From a virus: DNA of 36,276 nt. The notes under the pieces were generated by a model that had not been told where the DNA came from, made no database searches, and was given only the letters and a program-made list of their open reading frames with translations. The stretch spans positions 1 through 36,276 of the IMG/VR virus record IMGVR_UViG_3300023119_000065; one strand, 5' to 3'. Positions 3,591 to 35,279 of this stretch are shown piece by piece; the stretch's first letter is position 1, and every line of letters starts with the position of its first letter. The translations under genes and the position numbers were made by a program.

Positions 3591-4087
3591 AAGTATTAAC
3601 AGTAGAAAACCAGACATATGAGCTAGACTTTGTTCCAGATGAAATAGATGATATACGTTACTGTGTACTAGATTACAGTAATAAGCATGATGCAGATTAC
3701 TTCTTTGTGCCACTAGTATTCTTGGAAATTTTTAATGCGCCAGCAGCAATCTTAAAAATAGGTGAAAACACAGTTAAGATGCCACTGGACTGGAGTTTAA
3801 TTATATGTGAGCCAGATGTAGGCGAACCAGAAGTAGTACCCATTACAGGACTAAATGATCGTGGCTTCCATGCATTTACATTTAATCCTATTACTGGGTT
3901 CTTGCCCAAGTTTCAGCCAGTGGAAATTACAAATGTGTATAATGATGTCAAGTGGCATTTTCCTAAATTAAAATATGGACACTTGTTGGCTGTTCCACTA
4001 AGTAATGAAGAAGGAGCACAGTGTGCATACTTTGTAAAAGAAACAAGTAAAGTACCTGATGTTCTTGACACATATCACTTATGGTAA
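3587..4087 (+). CDS. Conserved hypothetical protein downstream of uvsW
   Basis: 166 aa, mostly beta-strand, with a proline-rich, hydrophobic middle (VKMPLDWSLIICEPDVGEP) and a conserved-looking LNDRGFHAFTFNPITGF segment. Proteins of this kind occur beside replication genes in marine T4-like phages, but no biochemical role is known to me. The start codon overlaps the uvsW stop (ATGA at 3587-3590), which implies translational coupling. The frame on the opposite strand over the same DNA has no such support. Confidence 0.7.
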   Translation: MKVLTVENQTYELDFVPDEIDDIRYCVLDYSNKHDADYFFVPLVFLEIFNAPAAILKIGENTVKMPLDWSLIICEPDVGEPEVVPITGLNDRGFHAFTFNPITGFLPKFQPVEITNVYNDVKWHFPKLKYGHLLAVPLSNEEGAQCAYFVKETSKVPDVLDTYHLW

Positions 4088-4098
4088 TATTATAAATT

Positions 4099-4560
4099 AT
4101 GAGCAATAAACTAACAATTAAAGAAGAAATGCGAGCGATTGATCAGCGTGATATGGGCTGGTGGGATACGCTAACAGAAGAAGAACAAAAAAAGATCAGT
4201 CCCTGGGTACTGATGCGATATACCAGTGCATGTGATACTAATCATGATGAGATCCGTGATCACTATTTGACAATGACAAATGCACTGGTTAATGTACACT
4301 TTAATGTATTGAGACATCATCCACAACTACAACATCGACTATTGCAAATAGTGGGTATTGGTAAAACGCAGTATCATCCTTGGATAGCACCAGGAAAAAG
4401 ACAAAAAAAGAATAAAGTGGCAGAATGGTTGCTGGAATTATATCCTGGATTAAATGAAGATGAACTAGACATCTTATTGCAAAGTGATAAAAAAGAATTA
4501 AAAGCACTGGCTGAAGAAACAGGAATGACAGATAAACAAATCAAGGATCTGTTTAAGTAA
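4099..4560 (+). CDS. Conserved hypothetical protein with HPWI motif, early operon
   Basis: 153 aa and largely helical. The N-terminal half is acidic (MSNKLTIKEEMRAIDQRD). A YHPWIAPGKRQKKNK stretch sits near residues 93-107, and the C-terminal ~45 residues have the spacing of a small helical bundle (ELYPGLNEDELDILLQ, then TDKQIKDLFK). I do not recognise the family. Position and size would fit a small accessory subunit of the replication machinery such as a clamp-loader small subunit, but no signature supports that. No ribosome site is obvious. The next gene starts within its stop (TAATG). Confidence 0.65.
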   Translation: MSNKLTIKEEMRAIDQRDMGWWDTLTEEEQKKISPWVLMRYTSACDTNHDEIRDHYLTMTNALVNVHFNVLRHHPQLQHRLLQIVGIGKTQYHPWIAPGKRQKKNKVAEWLLELYPGLNEDELDILLQSDKKELKALAEETGMTDKQIKDLFK

Positions 4561-6891: not shown

Positions 6892-8067
6892 ATGACACAA
6901 GGTACCGGATATATTTACAGTCAGCGTGGTGACGTAGTACTTGGCAAACGTACAGGCACTACAAGGAATCAACCAAGCAATTACAAGCCTTTTAAAATCT
7001 TAAAGGGTGTTGATACAGTTATCACATTTTTTATTCGTGATGTAAACGGATGCAAAATACAATTGCACGATAAAACAATCAAAGCAGTTGTAATGAAGCA
7101 TGACGGACATCACGTATTAGTACAAAAGAATTTACGTGTACAGGATGTCAAAAACGGTGTTGCAACACTACATCTTTCTCCAGGTGATATTGCAAACATG
7201 GGTGCTGGGTTTTATGATATCTTGTTAACTTGGCAAGATGAACTAAACCGTGTACATGCACTTCACAGTGACGCAAACTACCGTTATTGCTATGTTGCTG
7301 AAGTTGTAGACGATTGTGGTCCTATGCATATGGATGCACAGTCAGCATACAGTGACTATGCACTTGGTTTACAAGATCCAGACGATACAGTTTACCCACT
7401 GGGTATTACAAGTAGTTATTGGTCAATTACACTAACTGCAACACTCAGTGTAGATATTACCTTTAGTCTAATGGTAGGCGTTAACTTAAATGTAGCACTG
7501 GGACTTAGTTCTGGCTGTGGTGCAGTCTTTAATGTTAGTATAGGCGTATCATTTGTAATCAATGCTAACTTTGTATATGATATAACATTTGTTTCAGCAG
7601 GTGCAGGCTATCAAGTTGGTGATGTAATTCTTGTTACTGGTGATCAACTGGGTGGTGTGCGTGGTGTAAACGATTTGCGCATACAAGTTGACAGTGTTGA
7701 TTCAACTGGTGCAATCCAGACATACACTGTTACTGGTACACCTAATACAAGTGTATACACAATTGTAACAGAGCCTTTTGAAGGTCCAGCAAGCACCGTA
7801 GCAAACTGCGGCGGTATTAACACATTCAGTGTTACATATGCTGGTGGTGCTACTGGTACAGTACAGATGCAAGGTACACTGAGCCCTAATCCTACAAGCG
7901 ATGCAGATTGGTTTGATGTTCCGCAAGTTTGTGGATATAACAAAGAAATTAAAGTAGCAAACAAGACAGGTACAGAAGCATACCAAACAGATGGTATGTT
8001 TATGTTCGTTAGATTTAAATTCACTTTAACTGTTGGAAGGGTTGACAAAATACACTATAGACGTTAA
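6892..8067 (+). CDS. Virion structural protein (baseplate or fibre related)
   Basis: 391 aa. Residues ~30-140 resemble the beta-sandwich start of baseplate and receptor-binding proteins (PFKILKGVDTVITFFIRD, LSPGDIANMGAGFYDILLTW). A hydrophobic, Gly/Val/Ser-rich region follows. At 230-280 there is a module often repeated in marine phage structural proteins (SAGAGYQVGDVILVTG, LGGVRGVNDLRIQVDSV). The C-terminus ends in a strand pattern typical of virion proteins (FVRFKFTLTVGRVDKIHY). A late promoter box and a GGAG ribosome site precede it. Exact position in the particle is unknown. Its last codons contain the promoter of the primase gene. Confidence 0.75.
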   Translation: MTQGTGYIYSQRGDVVLGKRTGTTRNQPSNYKPFKILKGVDTVITFFIRDVNGCKIQLHDKTIKAVVMKHDGHHVLVQKNLRVQDVKNGVATLHLSPGDIANMGAGFYDILLTWQDELNRVHALHSDANYRYCYVAEVVDDCGPMHMDAQSAYSDYALGLQDPDDTVYPLGITSSYWSITLTATLSVDITFSLMVGVNLNVALGLSSGCGAVFNVSIGVSFVINANFVYDITFVSAGAGYQVGDVILVTGDQLGGVRGVNDLRIQVDSVDSTGAIQTYTVTGTPNTSVYTIVTEPFEGPASTVANCGGINTFSVTYAGGATGTVQMQGTLSPNPTSDADWFDVPQVCGYNKEIKVANKTGTEAYQTDGMFMFVRFKFTLTVGRVDKIHYRR

Positions 8068-8070
8068 TAT
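8042..8070 (+). promoter_or_regulatory. Early sigma70-type promoter placing +1 at the primase ATG
   Basis: TTGACA (8042-8047), 17-bp spacer, TAATAT (8065-8070), lying inside the end of the virion gene. The +1 expected 7 nt downstream is 8077, the A of the primase start codon; no ribosome site exists between. Confidence 0.7.
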
Positions 8071-8076
8071 GGTGTT

Positions 8077-9090
8077 ATGCATTTGGTCCTTGAGTTCACT
8101 AAAAATCTGATCCCCGTTAATTGGAAAACTACTGGCACAGGCTGGACCAGTGGTAATTGTCCTATGTGTGTACAGAATGGACAAAGCAGACCAGATACAA
8201 AAAAGCGTGGTGGTTTTTATTTTGAAGAAGACAAGTTCAGATACAACTGCTTTAACTGTGGCTATAGTACAGGCTGGAGTGAAGGCAAGCAACTCAGCGG
8301 GCGTTTAAAGCGTTTGTACGGTGTGTTTGGTGCAGATAGTAGTGAAATACATCGTTTGCAGATTGAACTTATGCGTGAGCGAGATACTGCTGAACTGCTT
8401 ATTAAAAAGAAAACGGAAGATAAAGAAGTTAAAATTGACTGGCCAGAAATACCACTGCCAGCTCAAACACAAGATTTACACACTGCTGAACTTAGTGAAA
8501 AAGAACTGCCCAAGTTTGTCAGTGCATGTGAGTTTTTAAGTGATAGAAGTTTACTGGATTATCCAGACTGGAAATACAGTACATTTAGTCATTTTAAAAG
8601 TCGTGTTATACTTCCGTTTTATTACAAAGGAAAAGTTGTAGGGTATACTGCACGTTGGGTTGGCGATGTGCCAAATAAAGAAACACCCAAGTACTATGTA
8701 CAACAACCTAAAAACTTTGTTTATGGATTAGATAACCAACATGCTGAAAACCGTTTTGTTATTGTGACAGAAGGACAGTTAGATGCGCTAAGTATTGGTG
8801 GAGTTGCTATTGGCAGTAATAGCATGAGTTTAGACCAATCTAAAATTATTGAAAAATTAGGCAAGCGTATTATACTATTGCCTGATGCAGATAAAGCCAG
8901 TATGCGTTTGGTTAGGCAGGCTATTAAACGTAACTGGATGGTTAGTTTTCCGCCCTGGGACGATGGGGTTAAAGATGCAAATGATGCAGTACAAGCATAT
9001 GGAAAACTGTTTACTATAAAAAGTATAATTAAGTTTGCAGTGGATAATAATACCAAGGCAGAAGTTATGGCAAAAGGTTACTGTAAATGA
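8077..9090 (+). CDS. 61: DNA primase, T4 gp61-like
   Basis: 337 aa (T4 gp61 is 342). The N-terminal zinc ribbon has C28-x2-C31 (NCPMC) and C58-x2-C61 (NCFNC). The TOPRIM catalytic domain follows, with E232 in IVTEGQLDALSIGG and D270-x-D272 in LLPDADKAS. It makes the RNA primers for lagging-strand synthesis and works with the gp41 helicase encoded two genes on. Its promoter lies in the upstream virion gene and predicts a leaderless mRNA. The next gene starts in its stop (ATGA at 9087-9090). Confidence 0.9.
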   Translation: MHLVLEFTKNLIPVNWKTTGTGWTSGNCPMCVQNGQSRPDTKKRGGFYFEEDKFRYNCFNCGYSTGWSEGKQLSGRLKRLYGVFGADSSEIHRLQIELMRERDTAELLIKKKTEDKEVKIDWPEIPLPAQTQDLHTAELSEKELPKFVSACEFLSDRSLLDYPDWKYSTFSHFKSRVILPFYYKGKVVGYTARWVGDVPNKETPKYYVQQPKNFVYGLDNQHAENRFVIVTEGQLDALSIGGVAIGSNSMSLDQSKIIEKLGKRIILLPDADKASMRLVRQAIKRNWMVSFPPWDDGVKDANDAVQAYGKLFTIKSIIKFAVDNNTKAEVMAKGYCK

Positions 9091-17890: not shown

Positions 17891-17919
17891 TAGACAAACG
17901 TTATCATTTCTGCTATACT
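17891..17919 (+). promoter_or_regulatory. Early sigma70-type promoter placing +1 at the nuclease ATG
   Basis: TAGACA (17891-17896), 17-bp spacer ending in TGC (extended -10), TATACT (17914-17919). The expected +1 at 17926 is the A of the ATG; only ACTTT lies between 17921 and 17925 and there is no ribosome site. Confidence 0.72.
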
Positions 17920-17925
17920 GACTTT

Positions 17926-18606
17926 ATGTTAACTTTAAATTCACCTTATCCTTATAAGGAACTTTCCCGTAAAATGGTAGATGGCAAAAGACTCTATGAT
18001 ACAGAGTCTGGCCCGTTGCCCAGTGTAACAACTATTTTAGATAAAACAAAACCACGTGAAAAACGTGAAGCTCTTGCCAATTGGAAAAAGCGTGTAGGTA
18101 CAGTGGAGGCTCAACGTATTACAACTGAAGCTGCCAATGTAGGTACCGTAATGCATAATATTTTGGAATACTGGGTCAAGAACGAAGCATATGATCCAGG
18201 TAACAATATGGTGCACCAACAAGCAAAACAAATGGCAGAAGTTGTAAAACAAAATGTAGAGCCAGATTTGAATGAAATCTGGGGTAGTGAAGTTGCATTA
18301 TACTATCCTGGTCTTTATGCTGGCACTACAGACTTGGTTGGTGTCTGGAAAGGCAAGCCAACAATTATGGACTTTAAGCAAACCAATAAGCCTAAAAAAC
18401 GTGAGTGGATTGAAGATTACTTCTTACAGGGCAGTGCTTATGGAATGGCACACAATGAACTATATGGAACTGAGATAGAAAATATTGCTATCTTTATGTG
18501 TAGTAGAAACTGTGAATGGCAACTATTTGAAGTAGAAGCTGATGAGTTTAAATTTTGGACTGAAAGATGGGCAGACCGTGTCAGTCAGTTTTACAGTCTG
18601 AGCTAA
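17926..18606 (+). CDS. PD-(D/E)XK family exonuclease (RecB/Cas4-like)
   Basis: 226 aa. The RecB-type nuclease motifs are in order: GTVMHNILE (73-81, motif I with H77), AGTTDLVGVW (132-141, metal-binding D136), IMDFKQTNK (147-155, D149 and K151 of the DxK motif) and LQGSAYGMA (167-175, Q-x3-Y). This fold degrades DNA ends, likely in recombination or host DNA breakdown. It is a single early gene set between late blocks. Its promoter predicts a leaderless mRNA. Related nucleases are widespread in cyanophages. Confidence 0.88.
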   Translation: MLTLNSPYPYKELSRKMVDGKRLYDTESGPLPSVTTILDKTKPREKREALANWKKRVGTVEAQRITTEAANVGTVMHNILEYWVKNEAYDPGNNMVHQQAKQMAEVVKQNVEPDLNEIWGSEVALYYPGLYAGTTDLVGVWKGKPTIMDFKQTNKPKKREWIEDYFLQGSAYGMAHNELYGTEIENIAIFMCSRNCEWQLFEVEADEFKFWTERWADRVSQFYSLS

Positions 18607-19799: not shown

Positions 19800-22100
19800 A
19801 TGACACCAGAAATTCAAGTAACAAAGCGAAACGGAGAGCGAGAACCTCTAGATATTGACAAATTACATAAAGTTGTATTTTTTGCATGTGAAGGAATTAG
19901 TGGAGTTAGCCCTAGTCAAGTTGAAATTAAAAGTCATATTCAGTTTTATAATGGCATTAACAGTAGTGACATTCAGGAAACCCTGATTAAAAGTGCTGCT
20001 GACTTGATTAGTGAAGAAACTCCTAACTACCAGTGGGTTGCAGGTAGACTAATTAACTATCATTTACGCAAGATGGTTTATGGACAATTTGATCCCTGGC
20101 ATATTAAAAAGTTAGTAGAAGTCAATACTGAAAAAGGTTTTTATGATCCTGAATTACTTGGTGCTTATTCTGATGACGAGTGGGAAACATTAAACAATCA
20201 CATTAGACATGATCGTGACAACAGTATTGCATATGTTGGCATGGAACAATTCCGTGGAAAGTATTTGGTACAAAACCGTGCAACTGGTGAAATTTTTGAA
20301 ACACCACAAATGGCTTATATGTTGATTGCTGCTACACTGTTTAGTGACTATCCTAAAGAAACACGTATGCGCTGGGTCAAAGATTATTATGATGCTGTCA
20401 GTACTTTTGAAATCAGTTTGCCAACGCCAGTAATGGCAGGTGTACGTACGCCACAGCGACAGTTTAGTAGTTGTGTGCTTATTGAAACTGGTGACAGTTT
20501 GGACAGTATCAATGCAACATCAAGTGCAGTTGTAAAATACGTATCACAAAAAGCAGGTATTGGTATTGGCGCAGGCAGTATCCGTGCTATTGGTTCGCCA
20601 ATCCGCAAGGGTGATGCTACACATACTGGTGTTATTCCTTTCTATAAAATGTTCCAAGCAGCCGTAAAATCATGTAGTCAGGGCGGTGTACGTGGTGGTG
20701 CTGCAACTCTTTACTATCCTATCTGGCATTACGAAATTGAAGATATGCTAGTGCTTAAAAATAACAAAGGTACAGAAGACAATCGTGTACGTCATTTGGA
20801 TTACGGTGTACAGTTTAACAAGTTAATGTACGAGCGCCTTCTCAGCGGCGGCGACATTACACTTTTCAGTCCTAGTGATGTACCTGGGTTGTATGATGCA
20901 TTCTTCCAGGATCAAGATGAATTTAAGCGTCTATATGAAACAGCAGAACGCAACACACGCCTACGTAAAAAGACAATTAAAGCAATTGACTTGTTTAGTG
21001 CATTTATTGAAGAACGCAAAAACACAGGCCGTGTGTATCTAATGAATGTGGATCATGCAAATGATCACAGTGCATTTGATAAATCAATGGCACCAATTCA
21101 TCAGAGTAACCTATGCTGTGAAATTAACCTGCCAACAAAACCATTACAACATGTATTTGATGAAGAAGGTGAAATTTCACTATGTACACTAAGTGCTATC
21201 AATTGGGGCATTATGCGCAGCCCTGCAGACTTTAAACGTCCTTGTGAACTTGCTGTACGAGGCTTAGACGCACTCCTAGACTATCAGAAATATCCAGTAT
21301 TGGCGGCTGAACTAAGCACTATGAAACGCCGTCCTATTGGTATTGGTATCATTAACTTTGCATATTGGCTTGCAAAAAATGATACTACGTATCAGGATCC
21401 AAACTTGGAACTTGTTGATGAATGGGCAGAAGCCTGGAGTTACTACCTAATCAAAGCAAGTGCTGATTTGGCTGCTGAACAAGGTGCATGCCCTGGCACA
21501 TCTGAAACACTATACGGAAAAGGTATTACACCTAACCAAACGTACAAGGGGGATGTTGACGAACTCGTGGCGCATACGGAGCGTTTGCCGTGGGACGAGT
21601 TAAGAACGCAGTTAAAAGAAACAGGGATTCGCAACAGTACGCTGATGGCTCTGATGCCTGCAGAGACTAGTGCCCAGATCAGTAACAGTACCAATGGTAT
21701 TGAGCCTCCACGTAGTTTTGTAAGTGTTAAACAAAGTAAACATGGCGTACTTAAACAGGTTGTGCCAGGCATTCACAAACTAAAAAGCAAATATGACCTA
21801 TTGTGGGATCAAAAGAGTCCTGAGGGTTATCTAAAAATTATGGCAGTATTGCAAAAATATATCGACCAGGGTATCAGTGTTAATACTACATACAATCCAA
21901 CCTTCTTTGATGATGAGAAGATTCCAATGAGTACAATGCTACAGCACCTTATTATGTTCTACAAGTATGGTGGCAAGCAATTGTATTATTTTAATACATT
22001 TGATGGACAAGGAGAACTTGACATCAATGCCGAAGATAAAGTAGAAGAATTAGCAGCAGGCGAAATGGATGATGATGCTTGCGATGCGTGTGTAATTTAA
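19800..22100 (+). CDS. nrdA: Class Ia ribonucleotide reductase large subunit
   Basis: 766 aa, full length. An ATP-cone regulatory domain (KRNGEREPLDIDKLHKVVF) is followed by the ten-stranded barrel. Key residues are visible: the first active-site Cys in RQFSSCVLIET, the N-L-C-x-E triad in SNLCCEINLPT, the partner Cys in SLCTLSAINWG and the conserved Tyr/Pro loop in NSTLMALMPAETSAQISN. The C-terminal tail DDACDACVI carries the redox pair that is re-reduced by glutaredoxin or thioredoxin. It converts ribonucleotides to deoxyribonucleotides for phage DNA synthesis. nrdB and glutaredoxin follow directly, forming a compact cluster. No clear promoter is seen before it. Confidence 0.96.
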   Translation: MTPEIQVTKRNGEREPLDIDKLHKVVFFACEGISGVSPSQVEIKSHIQFYNGINSSDIQETLIKSAADLISEETPNYQWVAGRLINYHLRKMVYGQFDPWHIKKLVEVNTEKGFYDPELLGAYSDDEWETLNNHIRHDRDNSIAYVGMEQFRGKYLVQNRATGEIFETPQMAYMLIAATLFSDYPKETRMRWVKDYYDAVSTFEISLPTPVMAGVRTPQRQFSSCVLIETGDSLDSINATSSAVVKYVSQKAGIGIGAGSIRAIGSPIRKGDATHTGVIPFYKMFQAAVKSCSQGGVRGGAATLYYPIWHYEIEDMLVLKNNKGTEDNRVRHLDYGVQFNKLMYERLLSGGDITLFSPSDVPGLYDAFFQDQDEFKRLYETAERNTRLRKKTIKAIDLFSAFIEERKNTGRVYLMNVDHANDHSAFDKSMAPIHQSNLCCEINLPTKPLQHVFDEEGEISLCTLSAINWGIMRSPADFKRPCELAVRGLDALLDYQKYPVLAAELSTMKRRPIGIGIINFAYWLAKNDTTYQDPNLELVDEWAEAWSYYLIKASADLAAEQGACPGTSETLYGKGITPNQTYKGDVDELVAHTERLPWDELRTQLKETGIRNSTLMALMPAETSAQISNSTNGIEPPRSFVSVKQSKHGVLKQVVPGIHKLKSKYDLLWDQKSPEGYLKIMAVLQKYIDQGISVNTTYNPTFFDDEKIPMSTMLQHLIMFYKYGGKQLYYFNTFDGQGELDINAEDKVEELAAGEMDDDACDACVI

Positions 22101-27892: not shown

Positions 27893-28057
27893 ATGGGATT
27901 TTTTATGTTTTTAATAATTGCGCTGATAGCATTTGCCGCAGTTATAAGCAACCCAAGTTGGGACAATCCAATAGTAAAATTTATTGCAGGATATATAGGC
28001 GGGCTTATATGTGCGTTTATATTACTTGCAATCTTTTTTAGAGCATTTGCACCATAA
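27893..28057 (+). CDS. Small two-helix membrane protein (holin candidate)
   Basis: 54 aa. Two hydrophobic segments (FFMFLIIALIAFAAVI, ~3-18, and IAGYIGGLICAFILLAIFF, ~31-49) are joined by a short polar loop (SNPSWDNPIVKF), and the end carries one Arg. AAGGAG lies upstream. It directly precedes the SleB-type cell-wall hydrolase gene, the usual place for a holin, so a lysis-pore role is likely but not proven. The coiled-coil membrane protein at 14632 is the alternative holin. Confidence 0.6.
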   Translation: MGFFMFLIIALIAFAAVISNPSWDNPIVKFIAGYIGGLICAFILLAIFFRAFAP

Positions 28058-28079
28058 TAAAAACAAACGAGGCAGGAAA

Positions 28080-28613
28080 ATGAAAAAGTTTGTAATAGAC
28101 ACACTGAGCAGTGTATATAATTTCGTTGCAGTAATTGCGCTAGTGCTGATAGCAGCACCAGTGTTTGCAGAAGAAACATTTGCAGGATATAGTGAAGAAC
28201 TATTTCCAGAAGAATACTGTATGGCACTTAACATTTACTACGAAGCACGTGGTAGCAGCATGGCAGATCAAATTGCTGTAAGCGATGTTGTATTAAATCG
28301 TGTACAAGACACCCGCTATCCTAATACAGTATGTGAAGTAGTCAAACAAGGACATCAAGATAGCAACGGCAATATGATTCGTAACCGTTGTCAGTTTAGT
28401 TGGTATTGTGATGGTAAAGCAGATCGTCCGCAGGATATTGATTCTTGGGTACGTGCACAAACACTTGCATGGCGTATTATGAAGTTCGAAGAGTTTCGTG
28501 GTATTACTGAAGGTGCTACACACTATCATGCACATTATGTAAACCCACGCTGGGCACGTGACATGACATTTATTGGAACCATTGGAGTACACAAGTTTTA
28601 TCGTTGGGATTAA
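28080..28613 (+). CDS. SleB/CwlJ-like cell-wall hydrolase (endolysin candidate)
   Basis: 177 aa from ATG 28080. The frame opens at 28011, but the later start gives a clean signal sequence and has AGGA upstream. Residues 1-30 are a secretion signal or signal anchor (hydrophobic FVAVIALVLIAAPVFA, then EE). The hydrolase_2 domain follows: NIYYEARGSS (51-60, catalytic E55), AVSDVVLNRVQD, CQFSWYCDGK (104-113) and GATHYHAHYV...GVHKFYRW at the end. It should cut peptidoglycan glycan strands. The membrane protein gene just upstream makes a holin-endolysin pair. Confidence 0.87.
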   Translation: MKKFVIDTLSSVYNFVAVIALVLIAAPVFAEETFAGYSEELFPEEYCMALNIYYEARGSSMADQIAVSDVVLNRVQDTRYPNTVCEVVKQGHQDSNGNMIRNRCQFSWYCDGKADRPQDIDSWVRAQTLAWRIMKFEEFRGITEGATHYHAHYVNPRWARDMTFIGTIGVHKFYRWD

Positions 28614-28658: not shown

Positions 28659-29345
28659 ATGCTAGTAGAAGAAATTGTAAACATTGGTGAGGGCGTAAAT
28701 GACCCTCACATTTTTAAAGCAGTATTCATGGCTGGTGGGCCAGGTAGTGGAAAGTCGTTTGTGGCTAGTAAACTATTGGGTCACACTGGCCTTCGCACAG
28801 TTAATAGTGATGACATTTATGAATACATGATGAAAAAACAGGATTTAGATCTAGATCCTGAAACTATTTTCTCTCCTCAAGGACAAGAAATTCGCAATAA
28901 AGCAAAATCAATCACAATGCGTAAACAAGAAAGTCACATTGATGGTAGACTTGGTCTTGTCATTGACGGTACTGGCAAGGATGTAGCAAAAGTTAAACGT
29001 GCAAGCGAAGCATTGCGTAAACTGGGTTACGAAACAATGATGATATTTGTTAACACCAGTTTGGATGTAGCACAAGAGCGCAATCAACAACGTGCTAGAA
29101 GTTTAGACCCAAAAGTTGTTGAGAAGATGTGGAATGATGTTCAACAAAACATCATGTCGTTCCAACAGCTATTTGGCAGTGGTAATTTTATTGTTGTAGA
29201 CAACAGTGGCGGTTTAGAAGATCAACAACGTGCGGCAAGTTTCCGTGAAGTTGAAAAAGATCTATATAGATTTTTAGAAACTCCTCCACGTATGCCACAG
29301 GCAAAACAATGGATAGATGATCAAACAAAGGATAGGGCAAGATAA
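28659..29345 (+). CDS. P-loop kinase (zeta-toxin/polynucleotide-kinase-like)
   Basis: 228 aa. After a short leader (MLVEEIVNIGEGVNDPHIFK), Walker A GGPGSGKS (26-33) is followed by NSDDIYEYM (49-57), an IDGTGKDVAKV segment (about 103-113) and RNQQRARSLD, which form the kinase core and lid. The C-terminal part is helical and ends in a polar tail. The fold phosphorylates nucleotides, nucleic-acid ends or small metabolites; the substrate is unknown. Similar kinases with the FSPQGQE segment are conserved in marine T4-like phages and expressed late, which hints at packaging in the particle. The next gene begins on its stop (TAATG). Confidence 0.83.
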   Translation: MLVEEIVNIGEGVNDPHIFKAVFMAGGPGSGKSFVASKLLGHTGLRTVNSDDIYEYMMKKQDLDLDPETIFSPQGQEIRNKAKSITMRKQESHIDGRLGLVIDGTGKDVAKVKRASEALRKLGYETMMIFVNTSLDVAQERNQQRARSLDPKVVEKMWNDVQQNIMSFQQLFGSGNFIVVDNSGGLEDQQRAASFREVEKDLYRFLETPPRMPQAKQWIDDQTKDRAR

Positions 29346-29604: not shown

Positions 29605-29964
29605 ATGTACGAATATAAATGTAAACTCGAAAGGGTTATTGATGGAAATACTATTGACGCTGAAATAGATCTAGGATTTAATGTCTTAGTCAAACAGCGT
29701 ATAAAACTTTACGGAATAGCTACACCGTCGATACAAACCAACGATCCTACACAAAAGGAGCAAGGACTGATTGCCAAAACACGATTGATTGAAATACTAC
29801 CTAAATCATTTGTGGTCAAAACTGTGCTAAACAAGCGTGGTAAAATTGGAAGAGTTCTAGGCTTTGTATATATAGAACAGGAGGATGGTAGTCGTATCAG
29901 CGTGAATGATTTACTTGTTGAAGAAGGAACAGCCACAAGATACGATACCAATAGTAAAGAATGA
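29605..29964 (+). CDS. Staphylococcal-nuclease-fold protein lacking catalytic residues
   Basis: 119 aa. The SNase barrel is clear: VIDGNTIDAEIDLG (11-24), VKQRIKLYGIATPS (29-42), GLIAKTRLIEIL (54-65), KIGRVLGFVYI (80-90) and VNDLLVEEGTATRYD. The two arginines of the active site are present (R32, R83). The acidic ones are not: the Ca-binding Asp of DGDT is N15, the Asp of DTPE is A39, and the general-base Glu is S42. It is therefore probably a binding domain and not a nuclease. It overlaps the membrane protein gene downstream by ATGA. Confidence 0.82.
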   Translation: MYEYKCKLERVIDGNTIDAEIDLGFNVLVKQRIKLYGIATPSIQTNDPTQKEQGLIAKTRLIEILPKSFVVKTVLNKRGKIGRVLGFVYIEQEDGSRISVNDLLVEEGTATRYDTNSKE

Positions 29965-31964
29965 GAGTTTTTGGTTATTGGACATTGTTTATAGCACTGT
30001 GTATCAGTGCGGTTGCAGCATACTATAGTATTATTGGTTTGACTGCTATTTTTGCTGCGGCAGTTATCCCTATCATTATCATGGGTAGTGTATTAGAAGT
30101 AGCAAAGATTACAACGGCTGTTTGGTTACACCGTTACTGGAGTTTAAGCCCTTACTTGATGCGTATCTATCTTACAACTGCGGTTGTTGTATTGATGTTC
30201 ATTACCAGCATGGGTATTTTTGGGTTCCTATCAAAAGCACATATTGAACAAACTGCGGCAGCAGAAGAAGGTGTTGCACAGTTGGATCGTATTGATGCTG
30301 ACATTGCTAGATATAATGCTATCATTGCTCGTGCAGAAGAGCGCATTGTTAAAGCAGAAGAAAGCACAGGCACTCGTAATACTGATATACAAACACAGAT
30401 AGACAAAGAACAAGAGCGTATTGATACTGCCTATGATCGTGCACAACCAGCTATAGACGAACAACTTGCTATTATTGATGCACAAACTGTTAAACTAAAT
30501 GACAAAGTTGCTGTTTATGAACAGGAAATCAACAGCCTTGATCAAGAGCTAACACGTTTAAACAATCTTGTAGCACAGTTTAGAGAAGAACTATCAAATA
30601 CAAACGTAGCAAGTGTTGAAGAACAAGTACAACCTTATATAGATCAAATTGCACAACTTGATAATGATATTGCAAGACTGGACGAACAAGCAGCGGCATA
30701 CGAGGCTCGTATTGCTGAACTAGAACCAGATAACAGTGCAGTTGATACATTAAAAGCACAGATTGCAAATATTGAAGAGTCAATTGTTGTAACAACAAAT
30801 AAACTACAAAGTACAGAGCGTGACAAGATCCGTGAAGGACAGGCAGTAATTGGTGTTACTAGCGATGGTTTATTTGGCGGTAACACCCGCCGTGCATTAG
30901 AAGCATGGGTAACAGCACAACAAGACCGTATTGCAAGTCTACAAGCACAGGAAACAGACTTAAGAGCACAAGCACAACTAGTAGTAGATAACGAGCGCAA
31001 CCGCTTAACAGGACTAGTTACAAGTTTACGTGGTGAACAAACCGCCGCAGTACAAGACCGTAAACAAGCACTATTGGATACTATTGATACAATACGTGGA
31101 GATGCCGCTAATAGTTTAAAAACACAACAACAAGCAATCCAAGATAAAATTGATAATGTGTTAACAGTTGATATACCAACAAACAGACAAGCACGTAAGT
31201 CAGCTCAGGATAGCATCACAGCATTGCAAAACAGTGAAGATCCAAAAGTTAAAATTGCTAGAGAAGAAATTGCAAGAATTAGAGACAGTGTAAATGAGCA
31301 GATTGTACAAAGTAATAATTTAATTGCAGATTTAAGAAATAGTCTTACCGTTGGAGAAGACAGTGCTGCTAATAAAATTATTGAAGAACAACAAGAAAAA
31401 ATAGTACAAGCAAACAATTCTATTGACACACTCACTGAAAACAAGTATGCTTTACAAGCAGAGGCTAGAAAACTTGAAGCTGAAGTTGGACCTGTAAAGT
31501 ATATTGCAGAACTAGTATACGGAGAAGATACTAGCCGTAGTAGTTTAGAAGACGCTGTACGTTGGGTAATATTATTACTAGTTGCAGTGTTTGATCCACT
31601 AGCTGTTATACTTGTACTTGCAGGTGTAATGACTGTAAATAGATTTGGTAAACATAAAGAACCACCAAGTATTCCTGAACCGCCAGGGGAGGCGCCAAAA
31701 AAGCCTGAACCTGAAGTTGAACTTAAAAAAGAAGAACACCAGGAACTAAAAAAAGTAAAAAAGACAAAACGTAAAAATGCTAAACCAGTGGATATTCCTG
31801 CTGAAACTAACAGCACTACAGATACTATTGATAACACTAGTAGCAATGATAGTGTAACAGCGCCAGCAGCTAAACCAGCAAACTGGACACCAACACGCAA
31901 TAAAATGTTCTGGTTAGACGAACATAAAGAAACCGTAAAAACTGAACTTAAAAAAGAAGAGTAA
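29961..31964 (+). CDS. Large membrane protein with long coiled coil
   Basis: 667 aa. Three N-terminal hydrophobic segments (about 6-22, 24-44 and 69-90) precede ~420 residues of coiled coil (QLDRIDADIARYNAIIARAE, DQIAQLDNDIARLDEQAAAY). A peptidoglycan-binding-like insertion sits at 295-318 (AVIGVTSDGLFGGNTRRALE). Near 534-560 there is another hydrophobic segment (WVILLLVAVFDPLAVILVLA), then a Lys/Glu/Pro-rich tail. Marine T4-like phages have large proteins of this layout with unknown role. The layout suggests an inner-membrane protein whose coil reaches through the periplasm, or a virion protein used at entry. Shares the late kinase transcript. Confidence 0.78.
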   Translation: MRVFGYWTLFIALCISAVAAYYSIIGLTAIFAAAVIPIIIMGSVLEVAKITTAVWLHRYWSLSPYLMRIYLTTAVVVLMFITSMGIFGFLSKAHIEQTAAAEEGVAQLDRIDADIARYNAIIARAEERIVKAEESTGTRNTDIQTQIDKEQERIDTAYDRAQPAIDEQLAIIDAQTVKLNDKVAVYEQEINSLDQELTRLNNLVAQFREELSNTNVASVEEQVQPYIDQIAQLDNDIARLDEQAAAYEARIAELEPDNSAVDTLKAQIANIEESIVVTTNKLQSTERDKIREGQAVIGVTSDGLFGGNTRRALEAWVTAQQDRIASLQAQETDLRAQAQLVVDNERNRLTGLVTSLRGEQTAAVQDRKQALLDTIDTIRGDAANSLKTQQQAIQDKIDNVLTVDIPTNRQARKSAQDSITALQNSEDPKVKIAREEIARIRDSVNEQIVQSNNLIADLRNSLTVGEDSAANKIIEEQQEKIVQANNSIDTLTENKYALQAEARKLEAEVGPVKYIAELVYGEDTSRSSLEDAVRWVILLLVAVFDPLAVILVLAGVMTVNRFGKHKEPPSIPEPPGEAPKKPEPEVELKKEEHQELKKVKKTKRKNAKPVDIPAETNSTTDTIDNTSSNDSVTAPAAKPANWTPTRNKMFWLDEHKETVKTELKKEE

Positions 31965-32411
31965 ATGGATATAGATAACAGTGTATATACTGTAACACCG
32001 CCAAGTTTGTTTTTAAACGAAAACGGCCCAAGTGTGTTACTTGTTAACTTTAAAGAAGATAAAATTAAAGAAATTTGTCAGGGTTTTGAAAAACTCTTTA
32101 ATAACAATAGTATTACATTTTACTATAGTGAAAGTCCTATCAATGATAGCACTATTGCGTGGTTTAGGGCAGTAGTAAACATGGCAGATTACATCATTGT
32201 TAATGTCAGTGAATGTAATACTGAAGAAATGTATACCATTATGATGTCTAAACTCAAGATTGATACAAACATCTTTTGGTTTAATCATGACAATAAAAAT
32301 AAAGCATTAGTTAAATTAATTAACAGTTATGATCAAAAAATACTAAGTACAGTAGATCAGTTAATTAAGATTGCTGGTATGGAGTTAGGGTTCGAAGACT
32401 TTGATGCTTGA
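31965..32411 (+). CDS. Conserved hypothetical protein, possible Rossmann-like fold
   Basis: 148 aa. It begins MDIDNSVYTVTPPSLFLNEN, which matches a family of marine T4-like phage proteins, and then alternates strands and helices (PSVLLVNFKEDKIKE; ADYIIVNVSECNTEE; TNIFWFNHDN). This layout resembles a nucleoside deoxyribosyltransferase-type Rossmann fold, but no catalytic residues are certain. It starts on the base after the membrane protein stop and ends the operon; the next early promoter overlaps its last codons. Confidence 0.68.
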   Translation: MDIDNSVYTVTPPSLFLNENGPSVLLVNFKEDKIKEICQGFEKLFNNNSITFYYSESPINDSTIAWFRAVVNMADYIIVNVSECNTEEMYTIMMSKLKIDTNIFWFNHDNKNKALVKLINSYDQKILSTVDQLIKIAGMELGFEDFDA

Positions 32412-32436
32412 CTTCTATATTAACTTATGTTATATT
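32408..32436 (+). promoter_or_regulatory. Early extended -10 promoter for infC-rpsU
   Basis: TTGACT (32408-32413), 17-bp spacer ending in TGT (extended -10), TATATT (32431-32436). Predicted +1 near 32443 gives a ~29-nt leader. GGGAG (32453-32457) lies 14 nt before the ATG, unusually far. Confidence 0.75.
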
Positions 32437-32471
32437 AATAAAATACTTTAACGGGAGAAACAAAAAAGTAC

Positions 32472-33023
32472 ATGTCTAAGTTTAAAAATAATCGCCAGGC
32501 TACCGATAAGCCCAGTGTGGTTAATAATTATACTATTGTTAAAAGGTTTAACGAAGTAAGAGTTACTGGAGCAGACGGTTCAGCTCTAGGTGTTATGTCA
32601 AGTAACCGTGCACTAAACGAAGCACAAGATCAAGGGTTAGATTTGATCTTGGTTACAGAAAAAGCAACTCCTCCTGTTTGCAAAATTACAGACATGAACA
32701 AGTTTCTCTATGAACGAAAACGTAGAGAAAAAGAAGCTGCAAAAAAGCAGCGAGAAAATAAAATCGAACTGAAAGAAGTTCAGTTTAGACCCAATATTGA
32801 CACTCATGATTTCGAAACAAAATGCAGACATGTACAGCGTTTTGTTGACAGTGGTGCACTTGTAAAACTTATGGTTAGGTTTAGGGGTCGTGAAATGTCT
32901 AATACAAAAAGTGGTTATGAAATTATTAACACTGTATTAGAGACAGTTGAAGGGTTAACGTTTGATAGCAAGCCGCAGTTAAATGGAAACCGTCTTATAG
33001 CTATAGTGAAAATGGAAAAGTAA
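32472..33023 (+). CDS. infC: Translation initiation factor IF-3
   Basis: 183 aa (E. coli IF-3 is 180). Both domains are complete. The N domain has EVRVTGADGSALGVMSSNRA (28-47) and the IF-3 signature around PPVCKITDMNKFLYERKR (67-84), followed by the Lys-rich linker (REKEAAKKQ). The C domain has LKEVQFRPNIDTHDFETKC (100-118) and LMVRFRGREMS (133-143). IF-3 binds the 30S platform, keeps subunits apart and checks start codon and initiator tRNA. A phage copy could alter start-site choice on host ribosomes. It has its own strong promoter and the bS21 gene follows with no gap. The Shine-Dalgarno is badly spaced. Confidence 0.95.
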   Translation: MSKFKNNRQATDKPSVVNNYTIVKRFNEVRVTGADGSALGVMSSNRALNEAQDQGLDLILVTEKATPPVCKITDMNKFLYERKRREKEAAKKQRENKIELKEVQFRPNIDTHDFETKCRHVQRFVDSGALVKLMVRFRGREMSNTKSGYEIINTVLETVEGLTFDSKPQLNGNRLIAIVKMEK

Positions 33024-33248
33024 ATGAGTAAACACCCTAAAACAGGCGGCGGCATGTCAGTTGCGGTCGTAAACAATGATATTAGTAGAGCGATGCGTAA
33101 ACTTAAAAAGAAAGTCAACAACGAAGGCATTCTTAAAGAAGTACGTGATAGAAAGCATTTTGAAAAGCCCAGCCTAAAACGTAAAAAAGCGAAAGCCGCT
33201 GCACGTAAGCGTTGGCTTAAACAACAGGCAAAAAATAATCAAATTTAG
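33024..33248 (+). CDS. rpsU: Ribosomal protein bS21
   Basis: 74 aa. It matches bS21 across its length: VVNNDISRAMRKLKKKVNNE (15-34), GILKEVRDRKHFEKPSLKRK (35-54) and a C-terminal basic helix KKAKAAARKRWLKQQAK. In bacteria bS21 sits on the 30S platform next to the anti-Shine-Dalgarno end of 16S rRNA and helps select mRNAs. Phage bS21 genes are known from marine viruses. It begins on the base after the IF-3 stop, so both are made together from the early promoter at 32408. A short N-terminal extension (MSKHPKTGGGMS) precedes the conserved part. Confidence 0.95.
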   Translation: MSKHPKTGGGMSVAVVNNDISRAMRKLKKKVNNEGILKEVRDRKHFEKPSLKRKKAKAAARKRWLKQQAKNNQI

Positions 33249-33283: not shown

Positions 33284-33360
33284 TTGTGCAGCAAAGAGAA
33301 AATTGCTACACAAGGAGTGCCGTGAAGGGCTCCAATTACAATTCTTGCTTTTAGAAGGAG
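33284..33360 (+). promoter_or_regulatory. Structured hsp20 leader, ROSE-like RNA thermometer candidate
   Basis: Three hairpins can form in ~80 nt. First, TTGTG-c-AGCAA (33284-33294) with TTGCT-a-CACAA (33303-33313). Second, GGAG (33314-33317) with CTCC (33330-33333). Third, TTCTTGCT (33342-33349) with AGAAGGAG (33353-33360), the ribosome site. The last contains TTGCT opposite the Shine-Dalgarno with a mismatch and G-U pairs, the arrangement typical of ROSE elements on alphaproteobacterial small heat-shock genes. Confidence 0.5.
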
Positions 33361-33367
33361 AAACAAA

Positions 33368-33805
33368 ATGACAAGATTAACAACACTAGACCTACCTACG
33401 TTTACACGTTCAGCTATCGGATTTGATAGAATTTTTGATGAAATGGAACGTAGCTTTGCAAATAGTGCAAACACTGGAAATTATCCACCATACAATATTG
33501 TACAAATCAATGAGAACGAATACATGATTAGTATTGCAGTTGCAGGATTTGGTATGGGTAACCTAGACGTTACACAAGACGGTAACGAACTTGTTGTAGA
33601 GGGTAAGCAACCAGTAGGTAGTGACGAAACTAATTACCTACACAAAGGTATTGGTACTCGTAACTTTAAGCGTAAGTTTACACTAGCAGAACATGTTAAT
33701 GTAGAAAACGCAACACTTGATCTTGGTATGCTAAACGTACATCTAGTACGTGAAGTACCAGAAGAGCTTCAGCCAAAGCGTATCGCAATTACTGAAGTAA
33801 AATAA
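33368..33805 (+). CDS. hsp20: Small heat-shock protein (Hsp20/IbpA type)
   Basis: 145 aa. The N-terminal arm (TRSAIGFDRIFDEMERSFAN) resembles IbpA. The alpha-crystallin domain runs from YPPYNIVQINENEYMISIAV through FGMGNLDVTQDGNELVVEGK to the strand FKRKFTLAEHVNVENATLD, with the conserved GMLNVHLVRE loop and a short C-terminal tail with KRIAI. It holds unfolding proteins in oligomers without ATP. Hsp20 is a common gene of marine T4-like phages and may serve assembly of the capsid or protein quality control. It has a long structured leader with AGAAGGAG before the ATG. ClpS follows. Confidence 0.94.
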   Translation: MTRLTTLDLPTFTRSAIGFDRIFDEMERSFANSANTGNYPPYNIVQINENEYMISIAVAGFGMGNLDVTQDGNELVVEGKQPVGSDETNYLHKGIGTRNFKRKFTLAEHVNVENATLDLGMLNVHLVREVPEELQPKRIAITEVK

Positions 33806-33851: not shown

Positions 33852-34154
33852 ATGTCAGAAGTAGCAGTAGAAAAGAAAACATCAAATATGACAACGTATA
33901 AACCACCACGTAAATGGAAAGTAGTATTTTTAAATGACGATACTACTCCAATGGAATATGTTATTGAGGTATTAATGACTCAATACAAGCACAGTCTTGA
34001 AGGTGCTAAAGATGTTACACTGACTATTCACAACAGCGGACGGGGAACTGCTGGTGTATTTCCACATGAGATTGCGGAACAGAAAGCAGCTGAAACAATG
34101 GTGCATGCTAGAGCACACAACTATGCGCTGCAAACAGAAATTGAACAAGAGTAA
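33852..34154 (+). CDS. clpS: ClpS adaptor protein
   Basis: 100 aa. The ClpS fold is clear: WKVVFLNDDTTPMEYVIEVL (22-41) and LTIHNSGRGTAGVF (57-70). Residues that hold N-degrons in E. coli ClpS are all in place with a constant offset of six: N28, D29, D30, T32, M34 and H60. ClpS delivers N-end-rule substrates to ClpAP and blocks other ClpA substrates. A phage copy could redirect the host Clp protease. The N-terminal ~20 residues are flexible, as in bacterial ClpS. AAAGG lies before the start. The guaC gene follows after three bases. Confidence 0.92.
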   Translation: MSEVAVEKKTSNMTTYKPPRKWKVVFLNDDTTPMEYVIEVLMTQYKHSLEGAKDVTLTIHNSGRGTAGVFPHEIAEQKAAETMVHARAHNYALQTEIEQE

Positions 34155-34157
34155 CCC

Positions 34158-35279
34158 ATGAGAATTGAAAACGAAGTATTGTTAGACTACAGCGATGTTC
34201 TGATTAGACCAAAGCGTAGTACACTAAAGTCACGAAGCGAAGTTGACTTAAATCGCAGTTTCACTTTTAGAAACTATAAACCTGATACTGCAGAAAATAC
34301 TCATTACTATGGTACGCCTATTATGGCAAGTAACATGGATGGTGTTGGTACTATGGAAATGGCAGACAAACTAGCAGAAGGAGAAATCTTTACCTGTCTA
34401 GTTAAAACTTATACTGCTGAACAACTGATTGAATACTTTGATGGATTACATGAACGTCATAGTCATGTAGCAATGAGCATTGGTACAAGTGACAGTGATT
34501 TTAATAAACTTGTACAAGTGAAGACCGCAGTAAACAATAAACTAAAATATGTTTGTATTGATATTGCAAATGGTTACAGCGAGCATTTTGTAGATCATGT
34601 TCGTCGTGTTCGTGCTGAATTTGCAGACTTGGTAATCATTGCGGGTAATGTAGTTACCGCAGACCAAACACAGGAGTTGATTTTAAATGGAGCAGATATT
34701 GTTAAAGTGGGTATTGGGCCTGGTAGTGTATGCACTACTCGTATCCAGACTGGTGTTGGTTATCCTCAATTGTCCGCCGTTATCGAATGTGCGGATGCTG
34801 CACACGGCTTGGGTGGCCATATTATCGCTGATGGTGGCTGCACTTGTCCTGGCGACATTGCTAAAGCATTCGCAGCTGGTGCCGACTTTGTGATGCTGGG
34901 TGGTATGCTTGCCGGACATGATGAAGGCGGTGGCGAAGTTATTACTAAGATTTACGAAACTAATGAACTACACCCCAACCGTATTAATCGTGTAACAGAA
35001 CAAAAACACTTTGTACAGTTCTACGGTATGAGTAGTGACGCAGCAAACACAAAACACTTTGGTGGTCTTAAAGACTATCGTAGTAGTGAAGGACGTGAAG
35101 TTCTTGTTCCCTATCGTGGCGCAGTTGCTCGTACAATACAAAACATCTTAGGCGGTGTTCGTAGTACATGTACATACGTTGGTGCACCTACACTAAAGCA
35201 ACTTAGTAAGTGTACAACGTTTGTTCGTGTTAACAATCAGTTCAACCGTACATACGAGAGTACGACAACTAAAATGTGA
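34158..35279 (+). CDS. guaC: GMP reductase
   Basis: 373 aa (E. coli GuaC is 347). The IMPDH/GMPR barrel is close to GuaC in all motifs: [17 protein letters not shown] at the start, [11 protein letters not shown] (56-66), [12 protein letters not shown] (133-144), IIAGNVVTA (160-168), the catalytic loop [13 protein letters not shown] (183-195, C192), [11 protein letters not shown] and QFYGMSS. An insertion of about 20 residues near 262-284 explains the extra length. The enzyme converts GMP to IMP with NADPH, which can feed adenine nucleotide synthesis for AT-rich phage DNA. It is rare in phages. The stop overlaps the next late box. Confidence 0.94.

Follow-up and report, generated by a model that had tools for sequence, protein, structure and literature searches.

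An IF-3 gene directly followed by a bS21 gene in a viral contig

The window analyzed here is a whole IMG/VR viral contig of 36,276 nucleotides. It carries an IF-3 gene (positions 32472 to 33023, plus strand) that encodes 183 amino acids from an ATG start and is followed on the same strand by a bS21 gene (33024 to 33248; 74 amino acids). IF-3 was assigned by Pfam, by PHROG 9787 (E value, 3.9e-46) and by a structure match. Both Pfam domains scored far above the curated cutoffs: the N-terminal domain (PF05198, IF3_N; residues 25 to 89, plus-strand positions 32544 to 32738) gave 83.1 bits against a cutoff of 26.9 (E value, 1.6e-23), and the C-terminal domain (PF00707, IF3_C; residues 98 to 180, plus-strand positions 32763 to 33011) gave 85.5 bits against 34.8 (E value, 2.4e-24). 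In an AlphaFold2 model, with a pLDDT of about 90 in both domains, a helix at residues 75 to 96 forms the linker of the two-domain fold. The best PDB matches of the model were IF-3s, including 30S-bound 5lmn_X (TM, 0.77/0.84; E value, 8e-18). A preliminary description of this DNA had proposed a full-length IF-3 with both domains, and the Pfam domains and the model agree with it. The bS21 protein matched Ribosomal_S21 (PF01165; 65.4 bits against a cutoff of 27; E value, 3.7e-18) and PHROG 21469 (E value, 2.5e-16). Both proteins already have phage families in PHROGs (9787 for IF-3 and 21469 for bS21), so neither is new by itself.

The TAA stop codon of IF-3 (33021 to 33023) abuts the bS21 ATG at 33024, giving a TAA/ATG junction (33021 to 33026, plus strand) with a gap of 0. 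The family matches and the junction sequence confirmed the earlier claim of a complete IF-3 followed by bS21 with no gap; the genes had also been called fused, but they are two separate, abutting cistrons. Among 50 measured IF-3/bS21 junctions, which include lineages found through bS21, the genes overlap in 37, abut in 2 and are separated by 2 to 32 nt in 11. The overlaps are of 4 nt (17 junctions), 8 nt (16 junctions), 11 nt (3 junctions) and 38 nt (1 junction). Several relatives have a GAGG-type sequence within the 3′ end of IF-3, ahead of the bS21 start, which fits the expectation for coupled cistrons. Because the same pair occurs on a second contig that is 99.88% identical over 13,805 nt (16 mismatches), it is not an artifact of chimeric joining in a single assembly. 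Between bS21 and Hsp20, a hairpin-like GGAGTGCC..GGGCTCC element (window positions 33314 to 33333) is common to the window and L043 (718); its fold z-scores were only −1.9 and −1.1. An Rfam search of the block returned nothing credible.

Promoter and translation signals ahead of IF-3

A sigma70-type promoter, TTGACT-N17-TATATT (32408 to 32436, plus strand; 10 of 12 matches), lies ahead of IF-3. In the window alone, promoters of this kind are at the chance level for the region (6 sites versus 5.7 expected in a shuffle test). Within the window's subclade, 8 of 9 loci have a promoter with the same 17-nt spacer 50 to 69 nt upstream of the IF-3 ATG, and in two of them all 12 positions match. Since both position and spacer are kept, the promoter is probably real, and the near-consensus promoter proposed earlier was supported by this comparison. 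A Shine-Dalgarno (SD)-like GGGAG (32453 to 32457, plus strand) sits 14 nt before the IF-3 ATG, an over-long spacing that recurs in a relative (L079).

The sister subclade lacks the promoter and has instead an SD-led mini-cistron of 9 to 15 codons that overlaps the start of IF-3 in a different frame. Of the 17 sister loci with 30 nt or more of space, 8 had such a mini-cistron, compared with a shuffle mean of 0.14 and a maximum of 2. Mini-open reading frames (ORFs) of this type (e.g., MITNQYAGTYEKV) occur in L081, L082, L086, L093, L095, L097, L099 and L108 and also in L084 and L096; they are likely translational couplers or leader peptides. Unlike these sister lineages, the window has no ATG-started upstream ORF before IF-3. 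At 33 other loci, the IF-3 start overlaps the stop codon of the upstream gene or lies within 30 nt of it. Judging from the mini-cistrons and the tight upstream stops, IF-3 synthesis in most lineages appears to depend on translational coupling, with bS21 in turn coupled to IF-3.

The pair is conserved across viral lineages

Viral contigs were collected by IF-3 alignment alone, blind to bS21, which yielded a set of at least 80 contigs that leans to relatives of the query. The bS21 gene lay directly 3′ of IF-3 on the same strand in at least 75 contigs (75 of 80 among the matches listed) and, with lineages defined at 90% IF-3 identity, in 45 of 50 lineages among the matches listed; the other five lineages have IF-3 without an adjoining bS21. 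No bS21 was found within 3 kb of IF-3 at any of 80 bacterial IF-3 loci, a set drawn from plasmid-collection records plus one profile search of genome contigs, in which SAR11 and other marine hosts are thinly represented. Fifty other bS21-bearing contigs have no IF-3, and most of them have the same gene block. IF-3 is likewise absent from the cultured bS21 phages PA5oct, HTVC008M, SCTP-2 and Mosig, so bS21 does not need IF-3 everywhere. Median dN/dS values of 0.089 for IF-3 (55 comparisons) and 0.143 for bS21 (57 comparisons) indicate that both genes are under purifying selection.

Clustering of neighboring genes gave a recurrent order of SNase, F1, F4, optional ClpX, IF-3, bS21, Hsp20, ClpS and GMP reductase. 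In the window, all on the plus strand, these are an SNase-like nuclease (F6; 29605 to 29964); F1, a 667-amino-acid predicted membrane/coiled-coil protein (29961 to 31964; 75 of 80 IF-3 contigs) with no confident family match; F4, a 148-amino-acid protein (31965 to 32411; 69 of 80); Hsp20 (33368 to 33805; PF00011; 72 of 80); the ClpS adaptor (33852 to 34154; PF02617; E value, 1.6e-24; 72 of 80); and a GMP reductase/IMPDH-family enzyme (34158 to 35279; PF00478, PHROG 9582; 59 of 80), all of these counts being among the matches listed. The F4 model (pLDDT, 89) had a best PDB match of modest scores (TM, 0.63; E value, 1.3e-3). Its predicted fold is nucleoside deoxyribosyltransferase/DNPH1/TIR-like, and candidate roles for F4 are those of a nucleotide- or NAD-related enzyme and of a counter-defense protein. 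In many contigs that do not have IF-3, F4 or ClpX leads straight into bS21. A Zeta-toxin-like kinase (28659 to 29345) and a cell-wall hydrolase (28011 to 28613) are conserved upstream of the block. Elsewhere among IF-3-positive phages, ARAGORN predicted tmRNA genes (tmRNA*) in L341 (15582 to 15997; tag ANANRAPEMALAA) and L350 (16141 to 16522; tag ANENFAPTGYALAA), and a 20-kb stretch of the L357 contig has 31 tRNA gene predictions.

Paired IF-3s form a phage-only clade with a variant C-domain signature

In a tree with 32 bacterial sequences, from which three very long rows had been removed, the paired IF-3s and that of L148, for which no bS21 was detected, formed one clade free of bacteria (97% ultrafast bootstrap, 89% SH-aLRT). 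Nesting of IF-3 within a host clade had been named in the preliminary description as evidence that would count against it, and the tree placed the paired IF-3s outside all sampled bacteria. Together with the frequency of pairing given above, this phage-only clade upholds the earlier view of a stable, phage-borne unit. The IF-3s of other huge phages fell outside the paired clade, among bacteria. Those of Atu_ph07, Phosso and L138 formed a group that was also outside it, with a common origin not rejected (AU p, 0.145), and CBB fell inside only on a very long branch. On an Hsp20-plus-ClpS tree of 90 loci, the presence of IF-3 required 2 changes, compared with 28.6 in shuffles, which argues that IF-3 was inherited along with the block. 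The bS21 sequence is too short for a bS21-only tree to settle the branching.

The surroundings of the pair are those of a phage. The window has a phage-type DNA helicase, a primase, a DnaB-like helicase, an exonuclease, NrdA and NrdB, and the replication genes around the pair are T4-like. Terminase was found in 10 of 15 long IF-3-positive contigs checked, and T4-type Gp23 and portal were found in 3 of the 15 (G054, G062 and G063), one of which (G063) holds L138, the unpaired type with an IF-3 outside the paired clade. In G058, a match to the terminase large subunit (20191 to 21693) is broken by one TGA and one TAA and represents a split gene, an intron or an assembly error.

Fifty paired phage IF-3s were compared residue by residue with 33 bacterial IF-3s. 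R168 of E. coli IF-3, a residue implicated in 30S binding, is replaced by N in 49 of the 50 phage proteins, which thus have no basic residue at this position; the R or K is shifted to position 169, where all 50 have one in place of E. coli Q169. In the window this clade signature reads G172-N173-R174 (32985 to 32993, plus strand). Bacterial IF-3s have R (22/33), K (7/33) or N (4/33) at position 168, so N168 is the mark of a variant and no bar to membership in the IF-3 family. The aromatic residue at E. coli position 70 (Y70) is mostly lost in the paired phage IF-3s. Y80 and K117 of the window protein correspond to E. coli Tyr75 and K110; position 75 is Y or F, and position 110 is K, in 50/50 paired phage IF-3s. 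Tyr75 contacts the platform and serves fidelity (PMC5037330).

Comparison with known systems

Phage bS21 of the same protein family is known from aquatic tailed phages (Mizuno 2019, PMC6375957; Chen 2022, PMC9723584), and many of the 900 phages of Chen et al. have Hsp20 and Clp genes near bS21, as the window block does. Earlier studies treated phage bS21 by itself or next to capsid genes of the opposite strand, whereas here it is the second cistron after IF-3. The opposite-strand layout is absent from the window, where bS21 shares its strand with F4, IF-3 and Hsp20 and the immediate neighbors of the pair have no structural family match. IF-3 is not mentioned in PMC9723584; what the present data add is IF-3 as a member and the order of the block. 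The early expression proposed in the preliminary description would rest on the sigma70-type promoter, and a different group of bS21 phages expresses bS21 late (PMC9723584). Work on pelagimyophages placed S21 in no gene cluster and concluded that no other viral factor is needed (PMC7029224).

Huge and jumbo phages (Al-Shayeb 2020, PMC7162821; Atu_ph07, Phosso, AP-J-162, CBB/GAP32) likewise have a complete IF-3, often adjoining ClpX or ClpS (PMC11242549). Where bS21 lies downstream of this IF-3, it does not adjoin it: the distance is about 1.4 kb in Atu_ph07, where the stretch spans the start of the circular record, 6.9 kb in Phosso and 1.3 kb in L138. No bS21 was found in CBB. PA5oct and Salicola SCTP-2 have a ClpX-bS21-(Hsp20)-ClpS order like that of the window block, and SCTP-2 also has an F1 homologue, but unlike the window these phages had no IF-3 in a genome-wide search. 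ClpX, ClpS, Hsp20, IF-3 and bS21 are mosaic neighbors across PA5oct, SCTP-2, Atu_ph07, Phosso, CBB and the viral loci, a recurring mosaic in different jumbo phages that reads as a proteostasis and translation cassette. The bacterial infC-rpmI-rplT operon also joins IF-3 to ribosomal protein genes, but there the partners are bL35 and bL20, as in E. coli, where rpmI-rplT follow infC. The window departs from that order, with IF-3 followed by bS21, Hsp20 and ClpS. E. coli infC starts with a noncanonical ATT, in contrast with the ATG of the phage gene.

Phage IF-3, phage bS21 and Hsp20/Clp genes near bS21 were thus already known singly. What is new is how these known kinds of protein are arranged, an order conserved widely across a large set of tailed phages, most of them uncultured. 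We found no report of an IF-3/bS21 unit in the open-licence literature searched; a precedent elsewhere is possible.

Leaderless-type starts and SD use

Four window promoters (2101 to 2136, 4065 to 4099, 8042 to 8077 and 17891 to 17926) have a −10 box that ends 6 to 7 nt before an ATG. The genes behind them, a helicase, an unknown gene, a primase and an exonuclease, are predicted to have leaderless mRNAs that lack an SD. With leaderless-type promoters defined by a gene start 6 to 8 nt after the −10 box, gene starts peaked at +7 (31 fell at +6 to +8, and 17 other positions inside 20 nt together had 26). There were no such promoters in 50 kb each of T4 and Cr30. The peak recurs in related bS21 phages whether or not they have IF-3, and leaderless-type promoters are equally frequent in the two groups, so the simplest idea, that IF-3 serves leaderless mRNAs, is not supported. 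Low SD use was also rejected as a reason for IF-3, since SD frequency is ordinary (30 to 44%, versus 47% in T4).

A possible initiation unit acting on the host 30S subunit

No such arrangement of IF-3 and bS21 turned up in the bacterial genomes that were examined, a contrast suggesting that the phages remodel the host small ribosomal subunit so as to start translation at phage-chosen sites. The reading that we favor, with moderate confidence, is that the pair is a phage-specific, vertically inherited initiation unit whose products shift the start choice of the host 30S subunit to phage messages. A single message with adjoining cistrons would yield both phage IF-3 and phage bS21, the latter mainly through translational coupling to IF-3, and both proteins would bind the host 30S subunit. 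Phage bS21 would occupy the exchangeable bS21 site beside the mRNA/anti-SD helix, and phage IF-3 would take up the platform and P-site positions. Together they would move the start-site acceptance of the host ribosome towards phage messages, many of which would have no well-placed SD (overlapping cistrons and some leaderless-type starts).

Published work makes this geometry plausible. The N-terminal domain of IF3 lies on the platform near uS11, and the SD:anti-SD helix is displaced when initiation factors are bound (PMC5037330); bS21 would collide with the SD helix if it were not moved (PMC4611024). From this literature, phage IF-3 and bS21 plausibly sit side by side where starts are chosen. 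Overexpression of IF3 suppresses re-initiation and blocks M13 (PMC2268962), and an excess of the factor represses starts of the leaderless and the SD-less re-initiation type (PMC2268962, PMC9031893). Given this inhibition of re-initiation by surplus IF-3, bS21 made by re-initiation behind IF-3 would be capped, and this cap would set the IF-3:bS21 ratio. We infer the joint action of the pair on the host 30S subunit and the direction of its effect; adjoining phage genes can be co-inherited and not act together.

Viral bS21 from HTVC008M enters E. coli ribosomes, whose activity is then about 5%, and the authors of that study raised the possibility that other factors, encoded by virus or host, are required (PMC6375957). 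A stricter version of the favored reading, which we think unlikely, is that phage IF-3 works only, or best, on 30S subunits carrying phage bS21. The clade-specific C-domain signature of IF-3 would then belong to an initiation complex of phage type that follows start-site rules of its own, and this would explain why ribosomes with viral bS21 alone are nearly inactive in vitro.

The two proteins could instead bring independent benefits, as dosage supplements in a shared coupled operon that leave start choice unaltered, providing more free 30S subunits and subunits fully loaded with bS21 in starved hosts. The operon sits in a proteostasis/translation block with Hsp20, ClpS and ClpX, and it is the whole block that is conserved; moreover, its parts occur separately, as ClpX-bS21-Hsp20-ClpS without IF-3 in PA5oct and as ClpX-IF-3 in Atu_ph07 and Phosso. 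The clade-wide changes at positions 168 and 169 and the loss of Y70 suggest altered rather than merely added function, however, and leave this explanation an improbable one that still deserves weight. Somewhat less probable again is host shut-off, in which bS21, possibly with excess IF-3, would poison bulk host initiation with no redirection, and phage messages would survive by abundance or strong SDs. The low activity of E. coli ribosomes with viral bS21 and the suppression of some initiation types by excess IF-3 (PMC2268962) fit such a poison, but the former was measured across species with no cognate IF-3 present, late translation is a necessity for a lytic T4-like phage, and both full domains and the functional positions of IF-3 are conserved. 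Recent acquisition from a host, or a contaminating bacterial fragment, is very improbable and already refuted for the samples tested: both families are bacterial and phage bS21 has repeatedly been acquired from hosts (PMC6375957), but the paired IF-3s are a phage-only clade, no bacterial infC among 80 loci adjoins bS21, T4-like replication genes surround the pair, and long IF-3-positive contigs carry terminase or, less often, Gp23 and portal (in one case with the unpaired type). By these sequence comparisons, the IF-3/bS21 pair is neither a one-off nor host contamination.

Phage ribosomal proteins were reported in 2019 with neither a partner nor a mechanism, and the authors suspected a missing factor. 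The IF-3/bS21 unit, conserved across dozens of lineages, is a concrete candidate for the partner of viral bS21, and with it the question of whether phages build specialized ribosomes becomes directly testable with two small proteins.
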